Assembly (NCBI GenBank): GCA_021780225.1
Contig: JAJXZF010000097.1
Coordinates: 1-44,534, forward strand
DNA: 44,534 nucleotides
Source: Deltaproteobacteria bacterium
Lineage (GTDB): Bacteria; Desulfobacterota; Binatia; Binatales; Binataceae
Reading direction: 5' to 3'
Shown here: positions 32,533-42,030 of the stretch, piece by piece
How positions within the stretch are numbered: position 1 is the first letter of the stretch
Layout: each line of letters opens with the position of its first letter
Program-made: the position numbers and the translations under genes
The notes under the pieces: model-generated
Database searches by the model: none
Seen by the model: the letters and a program-made list of their open reading frames with translations, nothing else
What the model was told of the DNA's origin: nothing

Positions 32533-33408
32533 ATGGCTGACATAATCGGTCCGACTTCGCATTTTTTCTACTCGCAGCGGCTTAAACTGCATTACGTCGA
32601 TTGGGGCAATCATCATCTGCCCTTGGCGATATTGGTGCACGGCGGCCGCGACCATTCCCGGAACTGGGATTTCGTCGCGCTCGATTTGCGCCGGCATTTT
32701 CATATCGTCGTACCGGATCTGCGCGGCCACGGGGATTCGGACTGGGCGATCGGCGGAGCCTATTCGATCACCGATCACGTGCTCGATCTGGGTCAGTTGA
32801 TGAAGGCGCTCGATCCCAAAGGCCCTGTGACGCTGATTGGGCATTCGCTGGGCGCCGGAGTGGTGTTGCAGCGCGCGGGCGTATTTCCGGAGGCCGTCAA
32901 GGCGATCGTCGCAATCGAGGGTCTGGGGCCGCCGGGCGCGATGATCCGCGAAACTCCGGCGCACGAGCGGATGGAGCACTGGGTCACCGATATGCTCGCG
33001 TTGGCGCAGCGCAAGCCGCGCGAGTACCAGACGATCGAGCAGGCGATGGAGCGCATGCGCGAGGCGAATCCGCATCTGAGCGCGGAGATGGCGCGCCATC
33101 TCACGATTTACAGCGTCAGGCGCAACGAAAACGGCACCTTTTCGTGGAAATACGATAATTATACCCGCGCCACGTCGCCGTATTTGTTCAATTTGAAAGA
33201 CGCGATGGAGATCTGGTCGCGAATCCGATGCCCGGCGCTGCTGGTGCGCGGCGATTCGTCATGGGCGGGCGATTGGGAGCGCGACGGACGGCTTGAAGCG
33301 TTCCGCACGGCGGAACTGGTAACGATCAAAAACGCCGGCCACTGGGTGCATCACGATCAATTGACCGAGTTTCTTGGCGTGATCCATCGATTTCTCGATC
33401 TATCCTGA
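32533..33408 (+). CDS. Alpha/beta hydrolase
   Basis: A 291-residue hydrolase. ILVHGGRDHSRNW forms the oxyanion region, DLRGHGDSDW follows, the nucleophile Ser is in LIGHSLGAGVVLQ, an acid is likely in VRGDSSWAGDWERDG, and the catalytic His in AGHWVHHDQ. It looks like an epoxide hydrolase or lactonase-type family member. Substrate unknown. Start ATG 32533 follows GGGGCGG. Its TGA overlaps the ATG of the ClC gene (TGATG at 33406-33410), so the two are translationally coupled. The functional link is unclear. Confidence 0.87.
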   Translation: MADIIGPTSHFFYSQRLKLHYVDWGNHHLPLAILVHGGRDHSRNWDFVALDLRRHFHIVVPDLRGHGDSDWAIGGAYSITDHVLDLGQLMKALDPKGPVTLIGHSLGAGVVLQRAGVFPEAVKAIVAIEGLGPPGAMIRETPAHERMEHWVTDMLALAQRKPREYQTIEQAMERMREANPHLSAEMARHLTIYSVRRNENGTFSWKYDNYTRATSPYLFNLKDAMEIWSRIRCPALLVRGDSSWAGDWERDGRLEAFRTAELVTIKNAGHWVHHDQLTEFLGVIHRFLDLS

Positions 33409-35504
33409 TGGCGGTCAAACCTTCAGCGGCCGGAGCCGCGGCGCCGCCCGACCCGCTGGTTCATCCTGAATCGGTTTCGTTGCGGATCGACCAGCTCGAA
33501 TATCTGGAAACGATTTTGCTGGCGGTCGCGGTCGGAGTGCTCGCGGCGCTTGGCAATCTCGGCTTTCGGCAGGCGATCGATTTCTTCTCCTGGATTTTCC
33601 GCGGACTGGAATGGCGCGCGCTCGCCATCCATCACGGCTCGTGGACGATAATCCTGATTCCGCTGATCCTGCTGAGCGGCGGCGTCGGGATGCTGATTCT
33701 GAATTATTTTTTCCCCGGCGACGTGCTGGGCTACGGCTTCCCGAATTTCCTCGAGATGGTCAATCTCGGCAACGCGCGTATCAAGCGCCGCTGGATCGTC
33801 CTGAAAGCGCTGGGCGCTGGACTCTCGCTCGGCTCGGGCGCGTCGGTCGGACGCGAAGGCCCGATCGCGCAAATCGGCGGCGCGATCGGATCGGCCGTCG
33901 CGCAAGTGCGCCGGCTGGGGGTCGAGCGCGCCAAGGTTCTGGTCGCCGCCGGCGCCGGAGCCGGTATCGCGACGACGTTTAATGCGCCGATGGGTGGCCT
34001 GATGTTCGCGCAGGAAATCGTCCTGATGGGACAGACGGAGCTCGCCAATCTGGTCTTGATGATCGTTGCGACGTTCACCGCGGTCGTAACCTCGCGCACG
34101 CTGATGGGCGAGGCGGGCGCCATGTTCCATCCTGTGGAATTTCATCTGGTGAGCTACTGGGAGCTGCTCAGCTATGGCTTGCTGGGCGCGATGCTCGGCG
34201 CGGTCGGCGCCGGGTATATCCGGTTTTTCCACGGACTCGGGCGCTATGTGCGGGCGATCAAGCAGCCGCAGTGGGTCAAGCTGATGGGCGGCCTGTTGCT
34301 GGTCGGCGCGGTCGCGATTTTTCTGCCGCGGAATCTTTCCGACGGCTACCCGGCGATCGATCAGGCGATGCAGGGAAAACTCGCGGCGGAGATGCTGCTG
34401 GCGCTGGCGGTGGCGAAATTCTTCACCAGCGCGGTTTCGCTCGACTGCGGCGCGCCGGGAGGAGTATTCGGACCGATTTTCTTTATCGGCGCGATGAGCG
34501 GCGGCGCCTTTCGGCAATTTCTGAGCTTCTTCATGCCGCGGATGCTTGGTCCGCGCGGTTCGTATTCGCTGATCGGCCTTGGCGCGTTTCTGGGCGGCGT
34601 CACTCATGCGCCCCTGACGGCGCTGTTTCTGCTGTTCGAGATGACCGAGCTCAACTATTCAGTCGCATTGCCGGCGATGATCGCGGTCATCACGGCGCTG
34701 GTCGTCGCGCGTTCGATCGAGAGCGAGTCGATCGATATGTACACGCTCGCGCGGGAGGGCAAGACGCTGGCGATCGGGCGCGAGCGCCTGCTTCTCACCC
34801 AACTGCCCGTATCATCGGTCATGAACAAGGAAGTGGACGTTTTGCCGCTCAACGCGCCCTTGCACGAAGTGTTGCGCTCCGCCGGCGAAACCTCGCAGGC
34901 GACGCTGCCGGTCGTTAACAGCAAGAACGAGCTGGTCGGATTGGTCGTGACGCGGGATTTGCTCGCGCTTTTGGCGGGCGGGGGCGAATTGGGACCGCTG
35001 GTGAACGCCTTCGATATCTGCCGGCGCAACCCACCCGTGGTGACGCCCGAATCGAATCTCGATCAGGCCGCGCAGATGATGGAATACGAAGCCCTCGACG
35101 AATTGCCGGTGGTTGAAAGTCCGCACGGAAGCCAGTTTTTGGGCATTGTTGCGCGGCGCAGCATCGCGCAGGCGTTCAACCGCGTGACGGTCTCGCTATC
35201 GGCGCACGAAGGCGGCGACCGCGGCATCTTTTGGGCGACCGGATATCGCGTGGCGCGGCTCAGGATCCCCGAATCCGCGGCCGGCAGGACCGTGCGCGAG
35301 CTCGATCCGCGCGCCCGTTACGGCGTCAGCGTCCTTGCGGTTCAAGACGCGAGCGATCCTATCGCCGGGTTTGCGCCAATCGCTCCCGATCGCCAGCTCA
35401 AGGTCGGCGATCTATTGATTGCCGCGGGCCGGTCGGCCGATCTGCGCCGATTCGAACGCGAGCTGGCCGGGATTGAACAGAATTCCGCGGTCAAGCCGGA
35501 CTAG
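33408..35504 (+). CDS. ClC-type chloride channel/transporter with CBS pair and TrkA-C-like domain
   Basis: A 698-residue membrane protein. The ClC domain (about 30-440) has about ten hydrophobic helices and the selectivity motifs GSGASVGREGPIAQIGGAIG (with the gating Glu of GREGP) and CGAPGGVFGP. The GSGxP proline is Ala-Ser here, so anion preference may differ. A CBS pair (about 460-590) contains MNKEVDVLPLNAPLHEVL and CRRNPPVVTPESNLDQAAQMM, usual for adenosine nucleotide sensing. The last 100 residues (RLRIPESAAGRTVRELDPRARYG...LKVGDLLIAAGR) resemble a TrkA-C/RCK-C domain. This channel architecture is common in environmental bacteria. It overlaps the alpha/beta hydrolase by TGATG. Confidence 0.92.
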   Translation: MAVKPSAAGAAAPPDPLVHPESVSLRIDQLEYLETILLAVAVGVLAALGNLGFRQAIDFFSWIFRGLEWRALAIHHGSWTIILIPLILLSGGVGMLILNYFFPGDVLGYGFPNFLEMVNLGNARIKRRWIVLKALGAGLSLGSGASVGREGPIAQIGGAIGSAVAQVRRLGVERAKVLVAAGAGAGIATTFNAPMGGLMFAQEIVLMGQTELANLVLMIVATFTAVVTSRTLMGEAGAMFHPVEFHLVSYWELLSYGLLGAMLGAVGAGYIRFFHGLGRYVRAIKQPQWVKLMGGLLLVGAVAIFLPRNLSDGYPAIDQAMQGKLAAEMLLALAVAKFFTSAVSLDCGAPGGVFGPIFFIGAMSGGAFRQFLSFFMPRMLGPRGSYSLIGLGAFLGGVTHAPLTALFLLFEMTELNYSVALPAMIAVITALVVARSIESESIDMYTLAREGKTLAIGRERLLLTQLPVSSVMNKEVDVLPLNAPLHEVLRSAGETSQATLPVVNSKNELVGLVVTRDLLALLAGGGELGPLVNAFDICRRNPPVVTPESNLDQAAQMMEYEALDELPVVESPHGSQFLGIVARRSIAQAFNRVTVSLSAHEGGDRGIFWATGYRVARLRIPESAAGRTVRELDPRARYGVSVLAVQDASDPIAGFAPIAPDRQLKVGDLLIAAGRSADLRRFERELAGIEQNSAVKPD

Positions 35505-37290: not shown

Positions 37291-38892
37291 TCAAGGCGCG
37301 GCGTACTCGTCGCGCACCTGAAGATGATCGATCGGAAAGACCAGGCCGGTGTAACGGATCACCAGCGTTTCCACTTCGAGGCGATCGAACTCGCTGTTGA
37401 CCTGGCCGTAAAGCTCAAGATTATCGCCCGCGACGCGAAACCGCACCTGCGAATAGCCGGCGTTATCGAGATCCTGGCGCAACACGGCGAGCCGCGGCGC
37501 GCTCAGGTCGGGCGCCATCGCATCGGGCGCAGGAGCGGGCGCAGGGTAGTATCCGGAATCGCCGCCGCTATCCGCCGGCGCCATCGCCTGAAAAATCTTC
37601 GCGACGCCATACGCGCACGCGAATATCGCCACGATCCAGATCAACCGATAGCGCGGCGGGCGGCGCCGCCGGGCTCCGATGCCGGCGGTATCGCGATGCG
37701 CGCCGCTGTGGCGCGGCGATCCCGCCGGAGCCGCGGACGGCTGGCCGCCCGGCAGCGGCAGCGTAACCGCGTCCGCCGCACCGAGCTCGAACGGCCGGTT
37801 GAAGGCTCCAACCTCGGCCGCGCAGTAGGAACAAAAACGCGAATCCGCCGGAATCATCCGCGCGCAGTTCGGGCAGCGAAACTCATTGGTCAGGCCGACC
37901 ACTGTTGGAGCGGCCGCCGCCGCGGGCGAGGGCGGGTTCGCGCTTGCGGAAGAAGCCGCCGCGGACGCGCCGCCGTTCGGCGCCGCAGCGGAGTTCGGCT
38001 GCCCCGCCGGCGCCTGCGACGCGACCGGAAGCGGCAACGGCAACTGCGAGCGGGCCGCCTCCGCGGTTGCGCCATTCACCGCGGCTGGGCCTCCATTTCG
38101 GATCGCGATCAGCCGGTTTTTGAACTCCGTCGCATCGCGCATCCGATTGACGACGTCATACGTGAGCGCCTGATCGACCAGCGCCGCGAGCGACGGATCG
38201 AGATCGGCGCGGAGTTTGCGCAATGGCGGAAAGCTGAAAGGCGCCTCCGCCGCGGGATCGCGGCCGGAAAGCGCCTGATGCATCGTCGCGCCGAGCGCAT
38301 AAAGATCGGAGCGGATTTCCACTTTGCCGCGATATTGCTCCGGTGGCGCATAGCCTTGCGTGCCGATCATGGTCGCGTTGCTGAGCGGCGCGAAATGGCG
38401 CGCGATGCCGAAATCGATAAGCTTGGCCTGACCCTCTGCCGTGAGCATCACGTTCGACGGTTTCAGATCGCGGTAAATCACCGGCGGATCGAGATTATGC
38501 AGGTATTCGAGCGTTTCCAGGATTTGGACCGCGATGTCGATCACTCGCGCCGCGGGCAATTTTCCGCCGGTTCGGCGCAGCTCGTCGTCGAGCGTATCGC
38601 CCTCGATGTACTCCATCACGAGGAAGTGATGGTTCGCGTCGCTGAAACGATCGAAGATGCGCGGGATGTGCTCGTTGGCCAACTTGGCGAGCATGTCGGC
38701 CTCGCGATTGAACGCCGCGACCGCCTGCTGCTGCATATCGGGACTGGTGAAGCTGTCAACCATCTCGGCGAGCGCGCAGCGGCGATCGGCGAGGCGCATA
38801 TCCTCAGCCAGGTAAACCAGCTTCATGCCGCCGCCGCCGATCGCTTTGACGACGCGATAACGGCCGCCGACGATAGTGCCGGAATCGATCAT
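37291..38892 (-). CDS. Ser/Thr protein kinase with zinc ribbon, WNK-like lysine placement
   Basis: A 533-residue membrane-anchored Hanks-type kinase. The kinase domain (about 10-260) has the loop IGGGGMKLVYLAED, ALAEM at the VAIK position, helix-C Glu64 (FNREADML), the catalytic YRDLKPSN (Asp142, Lys144, Asn147), DFG at 160-162, and GTQGYAPPEQY. The usual VAIK lysine is Ala42 (codon GCC). Lys24 (AAG) occupies the third glycine of GxGxxG, exactly where WNK kinases carry their lysine. After an Ala/Pro-rich linker come a four-Cys zinc ribbon (CPNC...CSYC), a transmembrane helix (about 415-437) and a C-terminal domain of about 95 residues that looks BON-like. It lies 22 bases after the zinc-ribbon gene. 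Activity is not proven. Confidence 0.9.
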   Translation of the reverse strand: MIDSGTIVGGRYRVVKAIGGGGMKLVYLAEDMRLADRRCALAEMVDSFTSPDMQQQAVAAFNREADMLAKLANEHIPRIFDRFSDANHHFLVMEYIEGDTLDDELRRTGGKLPAARVIDIAVQILETLEYLHNLDPPVIYRDLKPSNVMLTAEGQAKLIDFGIARHFAPLSNATMIGTQGYAPPEQYRGKVEIRSDLYALGATMHQALSGRDPAAEAPFSFPPLRKLRADLDPSLAALVDQALTYDVVNRMRDATEFKNRLIAIRNGGPAAVNGATAEAARSQLPLPLPVASQAPAGQPNSAAAPNGGASAAASSASANPPSPAAAAAPTVVGLTNEFRCPNCARMIPADSRFCSYCAAEVGAFNRPFELGAADAVTLPLPGGQPSAAPAGSPRHSGAHRDTAGIGARRRRPPRYRLIWIVAIFACAYGVAKIFQAMAPADSGGDSGYYPAPAPAPDAMAPDLSAPRLAVLRQDLDNAGYSQVRFRVAGDNLELYGQVNSEFDRLEVETLVIRYTGLVFPIDHLQVRDEYAAP

Positions 38893-38914
38893 GCGCTCGG
38901 CTCGCGATTGCCAG

Positions 38915-39310
38915 TCATGGCCGGGTCCGCGCCGGCGGCGACATCGCGGTCCGTCCGCGCGGATTGCGCCGCCGCGTGAAAGCTTCCTCGCGCACGGCGC
39001 CGGAAAGCGCCGCGTTCATCGCGCAGATCGCATGCAGCATAAAGCCCAGCGCCGCCGCCATCGAGTAAGTCGCAGCGACTGCGATGAACCAAGCCACCGC
39101 CGCGCGCTGCTGATGTTTGTAAATATGGCCGAGGCCGGGAATGACGCTCAACGCCAGCGCGACCATCGGCCGCCACGTGATATTGCGGCTGAGCCATTCG
39201 GTACCGGCCAACGGCGCCCCGCAATCTTTGCAATAGATCGCGTCGGAGACCATGACCGGCTTTCCGCATTGCGAACAGAATCGCGCCCGATCGAGGATTG
39301 CGTCAGCCAT
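38915..39310 (-). CDS. Zinc-ribbon membrane protein
   Basis: A 131-residue protein with two CxxC pairs at the N-terminus (RFCSQCGKPV and AIYCKDCGAPL). Two hydrophobic segments follow: MVALALSVIPGLGHIYKH, with the PGLGHIY turn typical of TM2-domain proteins, and VAWFIAVAATYSMAAALGFML. The C-terminus is basic (RRRNPRGR). It starts eight bases before the FHA gene ends, an overlap indicating translational coupling. It is followed by the kinase. The kinase carries a similar zinc ribbon, so a shared partner or regulatory interaction is plausible. No specific function is known to me. Confidence 0.78.
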   Translation of the reverse strand: MADAILDRARFCSQCGKPVMVSDAIYCKDCGAPLAGTEWLSRNITWRPMVALALSVIPGLGHIYKHQQRAAVAWFIAVAATYSMAAALGFMLHAICAMNAALSGAVREEAFTRRRNPRGRTAMSPPARTRP

Positions 39311-40589
39311 GGAAGACGAAGGCGGCGTCGCCGAACCGGACCGCCGCGCCGTCGGTCAGCGGAGCCTCGGCGATACGCTGGCCGTTGACAAATAATCCGT
39401 TCTGGCTCCCCAGATCGACCACGCGAAAACCGCCGCCATTGGCTTCGATCGCGGCGTGATGGCGCGAGACCGAGGCGTCGTTGATTACGATGTCGTTGTC
39501 GAGCGCCCGCCCGATACTCACCCGGCCGGAGGCCGCCAGCCGAATTCGCTCGCCCGTCGCGCTCTCCAGGCAAGCCTCGTTCGTCGCGGACGGCGCCGCA
39601 GGCGCGGCGGGCGGCGGCGCGACCGGCGCCTGATGTGGCGGCGCGGCGGCAATCGGATGCGCTCCATGAGCTTGGGCTCGCTCGTGGAAGCGTAATTCGT
39701 AATTGCCGATTCTGATCTGATCGCCGTCAGTCAGGGGCGCGGTTTCGATTCGTCCGCCGTTGACCAGCGTGCCCGCCTGCACTGCGAGATTGCGAATCGT
39801 GTATGCATCGCCCTTGCGTTCGAGCGCGGCGTGGCGCGGCTGCACGCTGGGATCGCCAAACAGACCGATCGCGTTTTCCTCCGCCCGGCCGATCGTGACC
39901 GTCGGCCCGTCGATGCGGAATTGCCGGCCTTTCAATCGGCCGGCTTCAACGACGATCCATGCGGTCTTGGTCAATTCGTGCGCCAGTCCGATAAACAGGC
40001 CGATCGCGAAACCTACCGCGCTGAAGCCGATGAACCGCGACATCATCCCGCTCGAACTGAGCATCCCGATCGGATCGAAGACGATTCCGCCGGCAAAACC
40101 GCCGACCCATCCGCCCGCCGCGCCTTTGAGCGCGTTGCGCATCGAACCGGTCGCAAGGCCGACGCCGAGGCCGAGCATCATTCCCATCAGCGTCCATCCG
40201 ACGAGCCTTGCCAGAATGAGATAGAAGGTCGATCCCGGATTGCTGCCGACCCATCCGCCCGCCGTCAGGATCGCGCTGAACGCGCGGTTCGAAAAATAAG
40301 TCGCCGGCAAAGAAAGTAAAAAGCAGATGACGAAGCTCCACAGCGCGCGGCGCTTCATCGCGTCGGTGATGGTGAACGATTGATCGTCCGACGCGGCGAT
40401 CAACGCGCCGATCGTTCCGGCCAATATCGCCATCACGATCAGGTTGCCGTACACGAGCCATAGGGATTCGGCCTGCGTCAGCGAATGGCCGTGGTTGACG
40501 AGCTCGACCGGGATCCAGCCGATCGCGCCGCCGAGCAGGCCCGCCAACGCTTTGAACATCAATTCGCGCTGATTGATGGAACTGTTCAT
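39303..40589 (-). CDS. Multi-pass membrane protein with two FHA domains
   Basis: A 428-residue protein. Residues about 10-210 form several Gly/Ala-rich membrane helices, with repeats resembling glycine-zipper packing (GLGVGLATG, GGWVGGFAGG). FHA domain 1 (about 218-303) has VTIGRAEENAIGLFGDPSVQPRHAAL and GTLVNGGRI. A Pro/Ala linker follows. FHA domain 2 (about 339-428) has VSIGRALDNDIVINDASVSRHHA and DLGSQNGLFVNG, the full phosphothreonine-binding set. Domain 1 has the less standard SVQPRHA. It is the natural phosphopeptide reader for the downstream kinase. ATG 40589 (MNSSINQREL) is chosen; the open frame upstream runs into the divergent promoter region. It overlaps the next gene by eight bases. 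Confidence 0.88.
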   Translation of the reverse strand: MNSSINQRELMFKALAGLLGGAIGWIPVELVNHGHSLTQAESLWLVYGNLIVMAILAGTIGALIAASDDQSFTITDAMKRRALWSFVICFLLSLPATYFSNRAFSAILTAGGWVGSNPGSTFYLILARLVGWTLMGMMLGLGVGLATGSMRNALKGAAGGWVGGFAGGIVFDPIGMLSSSGMMSRFIGFSAVGFAIGLFIGLAHELTKTAWIVVEAGRLKGRQFRIDGPTVTIGRAEENAIGLFGDPSVQPRHAALERKGDAYTIRNLAVQAGTLVNGGRIETAPLTDGDQIRIGNYELRFHERAQAHGAHPIAAAPPHQAPVAPPPAAPAAPSATNEACLESATGERIRLAASGRVSIGRALDNDIVINDASVSRHHAAIEANGGGFRVVDLGSQNGLFVNGQRIAEAPLTDGAAVRFGDAAFVFHG

Positions 40590-40791
40590 CCGCTGCAAAC
40601 CCTCATGCCCGGCCTCTCCGGTGCAGCGACGCTTGTTTATCGCAGCCGTTCCGAGACCACCTACATGATAGCGCCAGCGGGCGCGGCTTTGAACGCCTGG
40701 ATGCGCCGCGCCAGCGGCGGCGGTTGCCGACCCCGTCCCAAAAGATGCATTATTTTCCGCCGCAGCCGCGGCCGTGGATTCGAGGTTCCCG

Positions 40792-42030
40792 ATGGCGGAA
40801 AAAACGCTGATAAATGAACCCTTTGGCCCGTTGCAGAGCGTGCGGATAGTGTCAACCGGCACGCTGGTCGCACAGCCGTTCGCCGCCGAGCTGGCGGCGG
40901 AGATGGGCGCCGAGGTGATTCAGGTCGAGCGGCCCGGCCACGGCGACGCCGGATGGCGCACGCTCGGCGCGACGCTTCCGGCCCGCGACGGCGGTCCGGC
41001 GGTAGCCACGAATTTCATCCAGGAGCGGCGCAACGTGTTTTGCGTCACGCTCGATTTCGCGAAGCCGCGCGGCCGCGATCTTTTTCTGGAAATCGCCGCG
41101 CGCGCCGACATCTGGATGGAAAGCTCGAAGCCGGGCACGTATCCGCGATGGGGCCTCGATGACGACACAGTCCGCAAAATCAATCCGAAAATCGTGATTG
41201 CGCACGTCTCGGGATACGGCCAATACGGCGAGCCGGAATATATCCGGCGCACCTCTTACGACATCGTGGGTCAGGCGTTCGGCGGCTCGATGTATCAGAC
41301 CGGTTATCCCGAAAACCCGCCGTCGCGCGCGGCCCCGTGGACGGGAGACTATATGACCGCGATGTTCACGCTGTGGTCCTCGCTGGCCGGGCTGACTTAC
41401 GCGCGCTCGCACGGCGTCGGCCAGTCGATCGACGTCGCCCAGTACGAGGCGATCCATCGCACGCTCGGCGGCACGATGCTCGAATATTTCCAGAAGGGCC
41501 AAGTGCGCGAGCGGTCAGGCAACAAAGGGCAGGGCTTTCAGCCGCTCGACAGCTTCCAGACCGCCGACGGCTGGATCGCGATGGGCGCGCTGACGGAAGT
41601 TTACAACCGCCTGCTGGCCGCGATCGGACTCGACCCGGCGGAGCCGAAATGGCAAAGCGCGCGCACCAATCTCGATTCGATCGAGGGCGGCGAATTCGAC
41701 GCTATTCTGCGCGGATGGGTCGCGGAGCGGCCGACCGCCGAAGTCGTTCGCATCCTGAACGAAGCGCAGGTGCCATGCGCGAAAATCATGAACAGCCGCG
41801 ATATCGCCGAAAATCCGCACTATCGGGCGCGCGAGATGCATGTCGAGTGGGACGATCTACAGGTTGGCCGCGTGAAGGGCATCAACGTCGTGCCGAAATT
41901 TTCGCAGACGCCGGGCCGCGTCTGGCGCGGCGCCGCCGCGGTCGGCCACGACAATCAGCGCGTTTACGGCGATTTTTTGGGCAAAAGCGCGGCGGAACTC
42001 GAAGCGCTCAAACGCGACGGCGCGATCTGA
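40792..42030 (+). CDS. CaiB-like CoA-transferase
   Basis: A 412-residue CoA-transferase closest in motif pattern to the L-carnitine CoA-transferase CaiB. Shared features are FGPLQSVRIVSTGTLVAQPFAAELAAEMGAEVI near the start, IAHVSGYGQYGEPEY, DIVGQAFGGSMYQTG and GQSIDVAQYEAI (catalytic Asp). The C-terminal NVVPKFSQTPGRVWRG is nearly the CaiB form. No caiC/caiD-type genes adjoin, so carnitine itself need not be the substrate. Start ATG 40792 follows GAGGTTCCCG. It is divergent from the FHA gene, leaving a 202-base intergenic stretch, and convergent with the frameshifted oxidoreductase. Confidence 0.88.
   Translation: MAEKTLINEPFGPLQSVRIVSTGTLVAQPFAAELAAEMGAEVIQVERPGHGDAGWRTLGATLPARDGGPAVATNFIQERRNVFCVTLDFAKPRGRDLFLEIAARADIWMESSKPGTYPRWGLDDDTVRKINPKIVIAHVSGYGQYGEPEYIRRTSYDIVGQAFGGSMYQTGYPENPPSRAAPWTGDYMTAMFTLWSSLAGLTYARSHGVGQSIDVAQYEAIHRTLGGTMLEYFQKGQVRERSGNKGQGFQPLDSFQTADGWIAMGALTEVYNRLLAAIGLDPAEPKWQSARTNLDSIEGGEFDAILRGWVAERPTAEVVRILNEAQVPCAKIMNSRDIAENPHYRAREMHVEWDDLQVGRVKGINVVPKFSQTPGRVWRGAAAVGHDNQRVYGDFLGKSAAELEALKRDGAI

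Follow-up and report, generated by a model that had tools for sequence, protein, structure and literature searches.

A bacterial Ser/Thr kinase encoded in the window (the whole stretch of 44,534 nucleotides analysed here) lacks the beta3 VAIK lysine of Hanks-type kinases, having Ala42 at this site, and presents a lysine, Lys24, at the third glycine of its glycine-rich loop. The eukaryotic kinases WNK1 and WNK3 have the same arrangement, with the lysine in beta2 and a small residue replacing that of beta3. The reading that the lysine of the window kinase has been relocated is strongly supported by sequence comparison, and we consider it quite probable that the protein is an active, membrane-anchored kinase of the PknB type whose WNK-like lysine arose convergently. 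Wnk is presented, in the part of Kannan et al. (2007; PMC1821047) available to us, as the only functional ePK family without the beta3 lysine. No description of a bacterial kinase with such a relocation was found in the literature searched, the O'Boyle 2025 bacterial-kinase atlas lying outside that scope; the 2025 review of bacterial pseudokinases, in its accessible sections, covers families with other changes (PMC12599244).

The open reading frame 38892-37291 of the minus strand encodes a protein of 533 amino acids starting with MIDSGTIVGGRYRVVKAIGGGGMKLVYLAED, and the features of this protein and of the neighbouring genes are collected in Table 1. The Pfam Pkinase domain spans residues 12-215 with 122 bits against a gathering score of 31.7 (E 3.9e-35) and is matched in all of the 40 orthologues described below. 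The zinc ribbon near residues 340-360 scores slightly below the Pfam cut-off, and a hydrophobic window downstream of residue 280 (19-residue hydropathy of at least 1.6) is found in 39 of the 40 orthologues.

Table 1. Kinase gene, functional elements of its product and neighbouring genes, in window coordinates.
Feature	Position	Strand	Remarks
Ser/Thr kinase gene, 533 aa	37291..38892	-	kinase domain, zinc ribbon, one predicted transmembrane segment and BON-like C-terminal domain
Protein kinase domain, about residues 10-266	38095..38865	-	Pfam Pkinase E 3.9e-35; AlphaFold2 pLDDT 90.7
Glycine-rich loop GGGGMK, residues 19-24	38821..38838	-	invariant in 40/40 orthologues
Lys24 (AAG), the relocated loop lysine (third-glycine position), opens beta2	38821..38823	-	translation, alignment, model, codons
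Ala42 (GCC), at the VAIK lysine site, within beta3	38767..38769	-	translation, alignment, model, codons
Glu64, helix-C glutamate	38701..38703	-	invariant in 58 kinases and in 40 orthologues
Catalytic loop YRDLKPSN, residues 140-147	38452..38475	-	translation; 40-orthologue alignment
DFG motif, residues 160-162	38407..38415	-	Phe at the position of WNK1 chloride-pocket Leu369
Zinc ribbon, residues 338-361	37810..37881	-	Cys340, 343, 354 and 357 invariant in 40 orthologues
Predicted transmembrane segment, residues 417-435	37588..37644	-	hydropathy
BON-like domain, about residues 465-526	37315..37500	-	Pfam BON in some orthologues; model; weak OsmY match
Small zinc-ribbon protein, 131 aa, hydrophobic segment	38915..39310	-	directly upstream of kinase; same strand in 18/20 loci
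FHA protein, hydrophobic N-terminal half, two FHA stretches	39303..40862	-	Pfam FHA E 3.6e-37; same strand in 20/20 loci
ClC channel/transporter, CBS and TrkA_C domains	33408..35504	+	convergent neighbour; judged outside the kinase system

Re-translation places Lys24 at 38823-38821 and Ala42 at 38769-38767, exactly where the initial annotation had put them, and finds the rest of the catalytic set which it had described as intact, namely Glu64, YRDLKPSN (140-147) and DFG (160-162), with Asp142, Asn147 and Asp160 kept. When 58 kinases are aligned, at least 90% of them have Lys in column 42, and E64, D142, N147 and D160 do not vary; Ala42 is therefore at the VAIK position. The proposed match with the WNK loop lysine also holds, Lys24 and Ala42 aligning with the Lys and Cys (VAWC) positions in the WNK1 PDB sequence. 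In the AlphaFold2 model of the kinase domain, built on 58 sequences (pLDDT 90.7), beta2 (24-31) begins with Lys24, and Ala42 lies inside beta3 (37-44); WNK1 Lys233 is reported in beta2 in the available text of PMC4718504.

An orthologue is present in 40 of the 41 genomes of the window genome's family, the only miss being a genome of 53% completeness, which gives the kinase the appearance of a core gene. Lys24 and Ala42 occur together in each of the 40 orthologues, hence the swap is neither a sequencing error nor a one-off; Glu64, Asp142, Asn147 and Asp160 are likewise invariant, as are Gly177-Thr178 and Pro183-Pro184-Glu185 of the activation segment. The Lys24 codon is AAG in 30 orthologues and AAA in 10, while Ala42 is encoded by GCC (32), GCG (4), GCT (3) or GCA (1). 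Since synonymous codons vary while both amino acids stay, residues 24 and 42 appear to be under constraint. A contig search returned, among the best 80 of 181 relatives, four orthologues (L005-L008) with both Lys24 and Ala42. In a phylum sample of 395 genomes there are 8 matches at 1e-60, all within the window genome's family. Nine genomes of a sister family of the same class match at E 1e-40 or better, and in the three of them that were read (L173-L175) the matching domain has Gly24 and Lys42. Canonical kinases occur also in the window's own genome, namely L003 and L002 (49% identity, with GGGGMGMVYLAH and CAIKEMVD). Furthermore, nine additional loop-lysine paralogues, all diverged and one degenerate, occur in the window genome's family. 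In the paralogue L180 (G399) Lys24 is kept, but the catalytic Asn and the DFG are gone and position 42 is Val; it is apparently a pseudokinase derived from the family of the window kinase.

The check suggested by the initial annotation, whether loss of the VAIK lysine goes together with gain of the loop lysine, was made on 191 kinase domains. These were filtered by profile E, a start no later than profile position 25 and 60% length, with identical domains removed, so that domains without an N-lobe fall outside the count, and the numbers are counts of domains and not of independent events. Lys24 without Lys42 is found in 64 domains and Lys42 without Lys24 in 126; none has both, and the sole domain with neither is the degenerate second domain of L175. 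The two changes are thus coupled in 190 of the 191 domains, among which there is no intact homologue having Ala42 without the loop lysine. The 126 domains with Lys42 have Gly (84), Ala (39), Ser (2) or Asn (1) at position 24, while in the 64 loop-lysine domains Lys42 is substituted by Ala (61), Ser (2) or Val (1, in L180), the corresponding residue of WNK1 being Cys. These 64 domains comprise 49 of the window family, 14 of a second family and the single kinase L262. Glu64 and Asp142 are retained in 64/64 of them, and Asn147 and Asp160 in 63/64, a level of retention unlike that of a decaying pseudokinase. Seven columns have a state that both loop-lysine families share (at least 70% in each) and that canonical kinases seldom show (at most 25%); only the states at columns 24 and 42 are missing from all 126 canonical rows.

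The second family and L262 came from a DNA pattern search with G-G-x-K-x-[V/I/M]-Y-x-A, which is blind to position 42. The pattern is matched in 41 of 143 genomes of the class, 22 of 395 of the phylum and 2 of the 49 genomes behind other loci, as well as in samples of the phyla to which a Myxococcaceae genome (5/112), a Chloroflexi genome (3/151) and a Streptomyces genome (1/149) belong. The chance level is not negligible, as a reversed control gave 13 matches against 29 in the 395-genome phylum search, and the matches were read singly. Many matches beyond the window family lie outside kinases, and these (L216, L219, L240, L242-L252, L254, L263-L267 and L269) were set aside after reading. The second-family kinases (L211-L215, L217, L218, L253, L256, L258-L261, L268 and L270-L274) were sampled from several phyla, and most of them have the motif LGEGGxKxVYLAxD...LDRxVAxAL. 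None of the pattern matches read in a kinase frame has Lys at the aligned VAIK position. L270-L274 are later additions, outside the 191-domain count, in which reading by eye found a loop Lys and, at VAIK, Ala; in L271-L273 (G692, from the Chloroflexi sample) the frames are interrupted within the kinase domain, by decay or assembly error. Among six second-family proteins scanned (L211, L213, L214, L215, L217 and L218), three have a zinc ribbon, two guanylate-cyclase and SPOR domains, and four an AAA_16 ATPase domain. One genome of another class (G009) has six copies (L253, L256 and L258-L261). L262, a kinase from a deltaproteobacterial MAG, is a third type, with a loop lysine, Ala at VAIK and an FHA domain. 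A plasmid tblastn search with a second-family kinase returned 214 records by sequence similarity.

The alignment of the second family calls for some caution. Three residues past position 42 all 14 rows have a basic residue (Lys in 11, Arg in 3), and an alignment shift of three residues would place it at VAIK. The spacing from Tyr27 to position 42 is 14 in 14/14 rows of this family, which is also the commonest value in canonical kinases (67/126, with 17 in 10/126), and Lys, Arg or His occurs at 42+3 in 46 of the 126 canonical rows that retain Lys42; both observations favour the unshifted alignment. Because of this caveat we slightly lowered our confidence that the swap is recurrent and, by a smaller step, that in the overall explanation given at the outset. 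Neither the window family, which has Val, Ile, Thr, Leu or Ser at 42+3 in 49/49 domains, nor L262 is affected by it.

The relationships of these kinases were analysed on a tree of 109 representatives, from which columns 24 and 42 were excluded and which has no eukaryotic WNK rows; the 82 of the 191 rows that were dropped are the degenerate second domain of L175 and 81 rows with at least 75% identity to a kept one. The window family forms a clade of 16 rows (SH-aLRT 98) whose neighbours are canonical paralogues (94, not starred); another clade, of 7 rows (SH-aLRT 99), comprises the second family, and L262 is placed alone. Each of the two traits requires three changes on this tree, at the same places. 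Forcing the two loop-lysine families into one clade lowers the log-likelihood by 68.6 with a p-AU of 0.029, which constitutes moderate evidence, given a p-value of modest size and groups that were named only after inspection of the tree. Only two independent pairs lie on well-supported branches, and both agree; they are too few for a sign test. The initial annotation had left it that this bacterial kinase either reached the WNK solution itself or belongs to a lineage that keeps it. The lineage does keep the lysine, in 40/40 orthologues, and the swap looks convergent, and wider in bacteria than first thought. We lean, if only slightly, to the view that the two-site lysine switch took place at least two and probably three independent times in bacteria, besides WNK, and that it gave several bacterial phyla whole families of 'with-no-lysine' kinases that are active.

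In the mechanism that we propose, a PknB-type ancestor would have had its ATP-positioning lysine in beta3, at position 42, where Ala now stands, and the lysine would since have shifted to Lys24, which opens beta2. The small residue at 42 would give the Lys24 side chain room toward the alpha and beta phosphates of ATP and toward Glu64, and by this reach the enzyme would remain active. One bacterial family would have undergone the paired change, and at least one further group of bacterial kinases would have done so on its own. What the comparison shows directly is the two residues with their conservation and covariation, the separate positions on the tree and the conserved trio of genes; catalysis and the contact of Lys24 with the phosphates, as well as the signal and the substrate considered below, are what we infer. 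Alternatively, catalysis could have been abolished and the protein could act as a scaffold for the FHA protein, Lys24 being incidental or only an aid to nucleotide binding. To this pseudokinase explanation we give a minor share of our belief. It agrees with the usual criterion for pseudokinases, loss of the beta3 lysine (as given in the sections of PMC12599244 at hand), and L180 is a clearly degenerate member of the family; however, the other catalytic and activation-segment residues are invariant across the 40 orthologues, Lys24 itself stays invariant under synonymous codon change, and what recurs on the tree is relocation, not mere loss.

The CAK-chloro subfamily also has its charge moved to this loop site (Kannan et al., 2007, PMC1821047, in the portion available); there the loop residue is Arg, not Lys, and Phe stands at the helix-C Glu, whereas the window kinase keeps Glu64 and is a true Pkinase member. 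The bacterial pseudokinase families DLHK and DYD are also without the beta3 lysine. As far as the accessible sections of PMC12599244 describe them, DLHK has a conserved beta2 Arg, possibly aiding ATP binding, and a tabled example with AVLT and GFG, while in DYD the beta3 residue is Arg and the helix-C Glu is missing; neither description, in these sections, combines a loop lysine with intact HRD and DFG. The intact YRDLKPSN and DFG of the window kinase do not fit the motifs that these sections give for the families DYD, DLHK, ActPs, GLW and CP1, such as DYD, GLW or an altered HRD or DFG.

The kinase belongs to a same-strand trio with the FHA and small zinc-ribbon genes (37291-40862), the frames of the last two overlapping by 8 bases; the FHA frame is taken from its first possible start, and the true one may be further in. 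The neighbourhood was counted in 20 of the 40 family loci, of 10.7-19.9 kb each, in 14 of which a PHP gene is on the same strand as the kinase. The same-strand pairing of kinase and FHA protein suggests phosphothreonine signalling, in which the kinase would probably phosphorylate threonines and so create binding sites for the co-encoded FHA protein. A PADLOC comparison gave 33 families for the kinase, mostly PD-T4-6, and none for its two partner genes (FHA and zinc-ribbon); the matches were read as general kinase similarity, and for this reason, and because the gene is so widely kept (40 of 41 genomes), a role in anti-phage defence was not retained.

The C-terminal part of the protein resembles, weakly, a BON domain. 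Of the 40 orthologues, 15 match Pfam BON with an E value of at most 0.01; the window protein itself does not. The model of this region (pLDDT 75) has the order alpha-beta-beta-alpha-beta, and a Foldseek search with it is led by OsmY (best E 0.016), with CdsD, DolP, Kbp and BonA lower and no match at E 0.001 or better; we take all five to be BON-type proteins. The weak structural likeness of the domain (37315-37500) extends to both OsmY and the potassium-binding Kbp. The BON-like domain lies probably outside the cytoplasm, is possibly the sensing part of the kinase, and probably reads an envelope signal.

The initial annotation had also pointed out that in WNKs this pocket binds chloride and that a ClC gene lies about 2 kb from the kinase, perhaps by coincidence. 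The odd lysine position of WNK1 has been proposed to make room for chloride (available text of PMC7606576 and PMC4718504). In WNK1, according to the same part of PMC7606576, the ion touches the amides of Gly370 and Leu371 and is surrounded by Phe283, Leu299, Leu369 and Leu371, and the substitution L369F activates the kinase and makes it chloride-insensitive. The window kinase has the Phe of its DFG motif (Phe161) at the Leu369 site, as do all 40 orthologues and 14/14 rows of the second family, and a WNK-type pocket is therefore unlikely in both. The neighbourhood points the same way. ClC is indeed nearby in 16 of the 20 loci (in one of the other four, the downstream sequence is just 2.6 kb), but it is on the opposite strand in 16/16 and no better linked than the adjoining, unrelated hydrolase, which is present in the same 16 loci and also always on the opposite strand. 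Chloride sensing by the window kinase thus appears unlikely, and a WNK-like chloride-sensing kinase tied to the ClC gene is an explanation to which we attach very little weight.

The closest solved relatives of the window kinase, by both sequence and structure, are bacterial Ser/Thr kinases of the PknB/StkP type, which have the VAIK lysine where the window kinase has Ala42. Kinases of this type have a membrane segment after the kinase domain, as the window kinase does, and outer PASTA repeats where the latter has its BON-like domain. StkP and PknB head the PDB sequence matches, and the best 60 of 2120 include no WNK. Among solved neighbours of the model found by VIA-align, PknB is on top (Z 31.6); the 50 VIA-align rows include no WNK, which counts neither way. 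Foldseek gives PknA and PknB first, then WNK1 and WNK3 chains at ranks 11, 13, 14 and 19; these WNK matches are not exclusive, standing amid Aurora, TLK2 and other eukaryotic kinases of similar rank. The helix-C Glu is kept as in WNK1 (PMC1821047, in the part seen). On the other hand, WNK has Cys where the window kinase has Ala, and DLG in place of DFG, and the window kinase is a bacterial protein, PknB-like in sequence and fold, with a zinc ribbon, a membrane segment and a BON-like domain that WNK lacks. It resembles WNK in the position of the lysine alone and is not a member of the WNK family. That a WNK gene was taken from a eukaryote, or that this kinase represents a bacterial ancestor of WNK, is scarcely credible: the same two positions are changed and WNK chains rank fairly well in the fold comparison, but sequence and structural matches are led by the bacterial enzymes, the Pfam domain lists of the window protein contain no WNK-type C-terminal domain, and outside the loop-lysine clade the closest sequences belong to canonical kinases from the same family and the sister family (the best four with 52-56% identity, one of them a fragment).

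An active PknB-type kinase with a convergently relocated lysine remains our preferred reading, and what is new beyond this single protein is that the swap looks recurrent in bacteria. If a bacterial set with the WNK-like relocation is real, this solution would be reachable by two coupled substitutions, and the bacterial loop-lysine families would be natural replicates for asking in which order the substitutions occur. As the bacterial kinases keep DFG, relocation of the lysine would be separable from chloride sensing. Finally, kinases labelled as pseudokinases for their missing VAIK lysine may be active, and, if the recurrent switch is true, current rules would label whole active families as pseudokinases.
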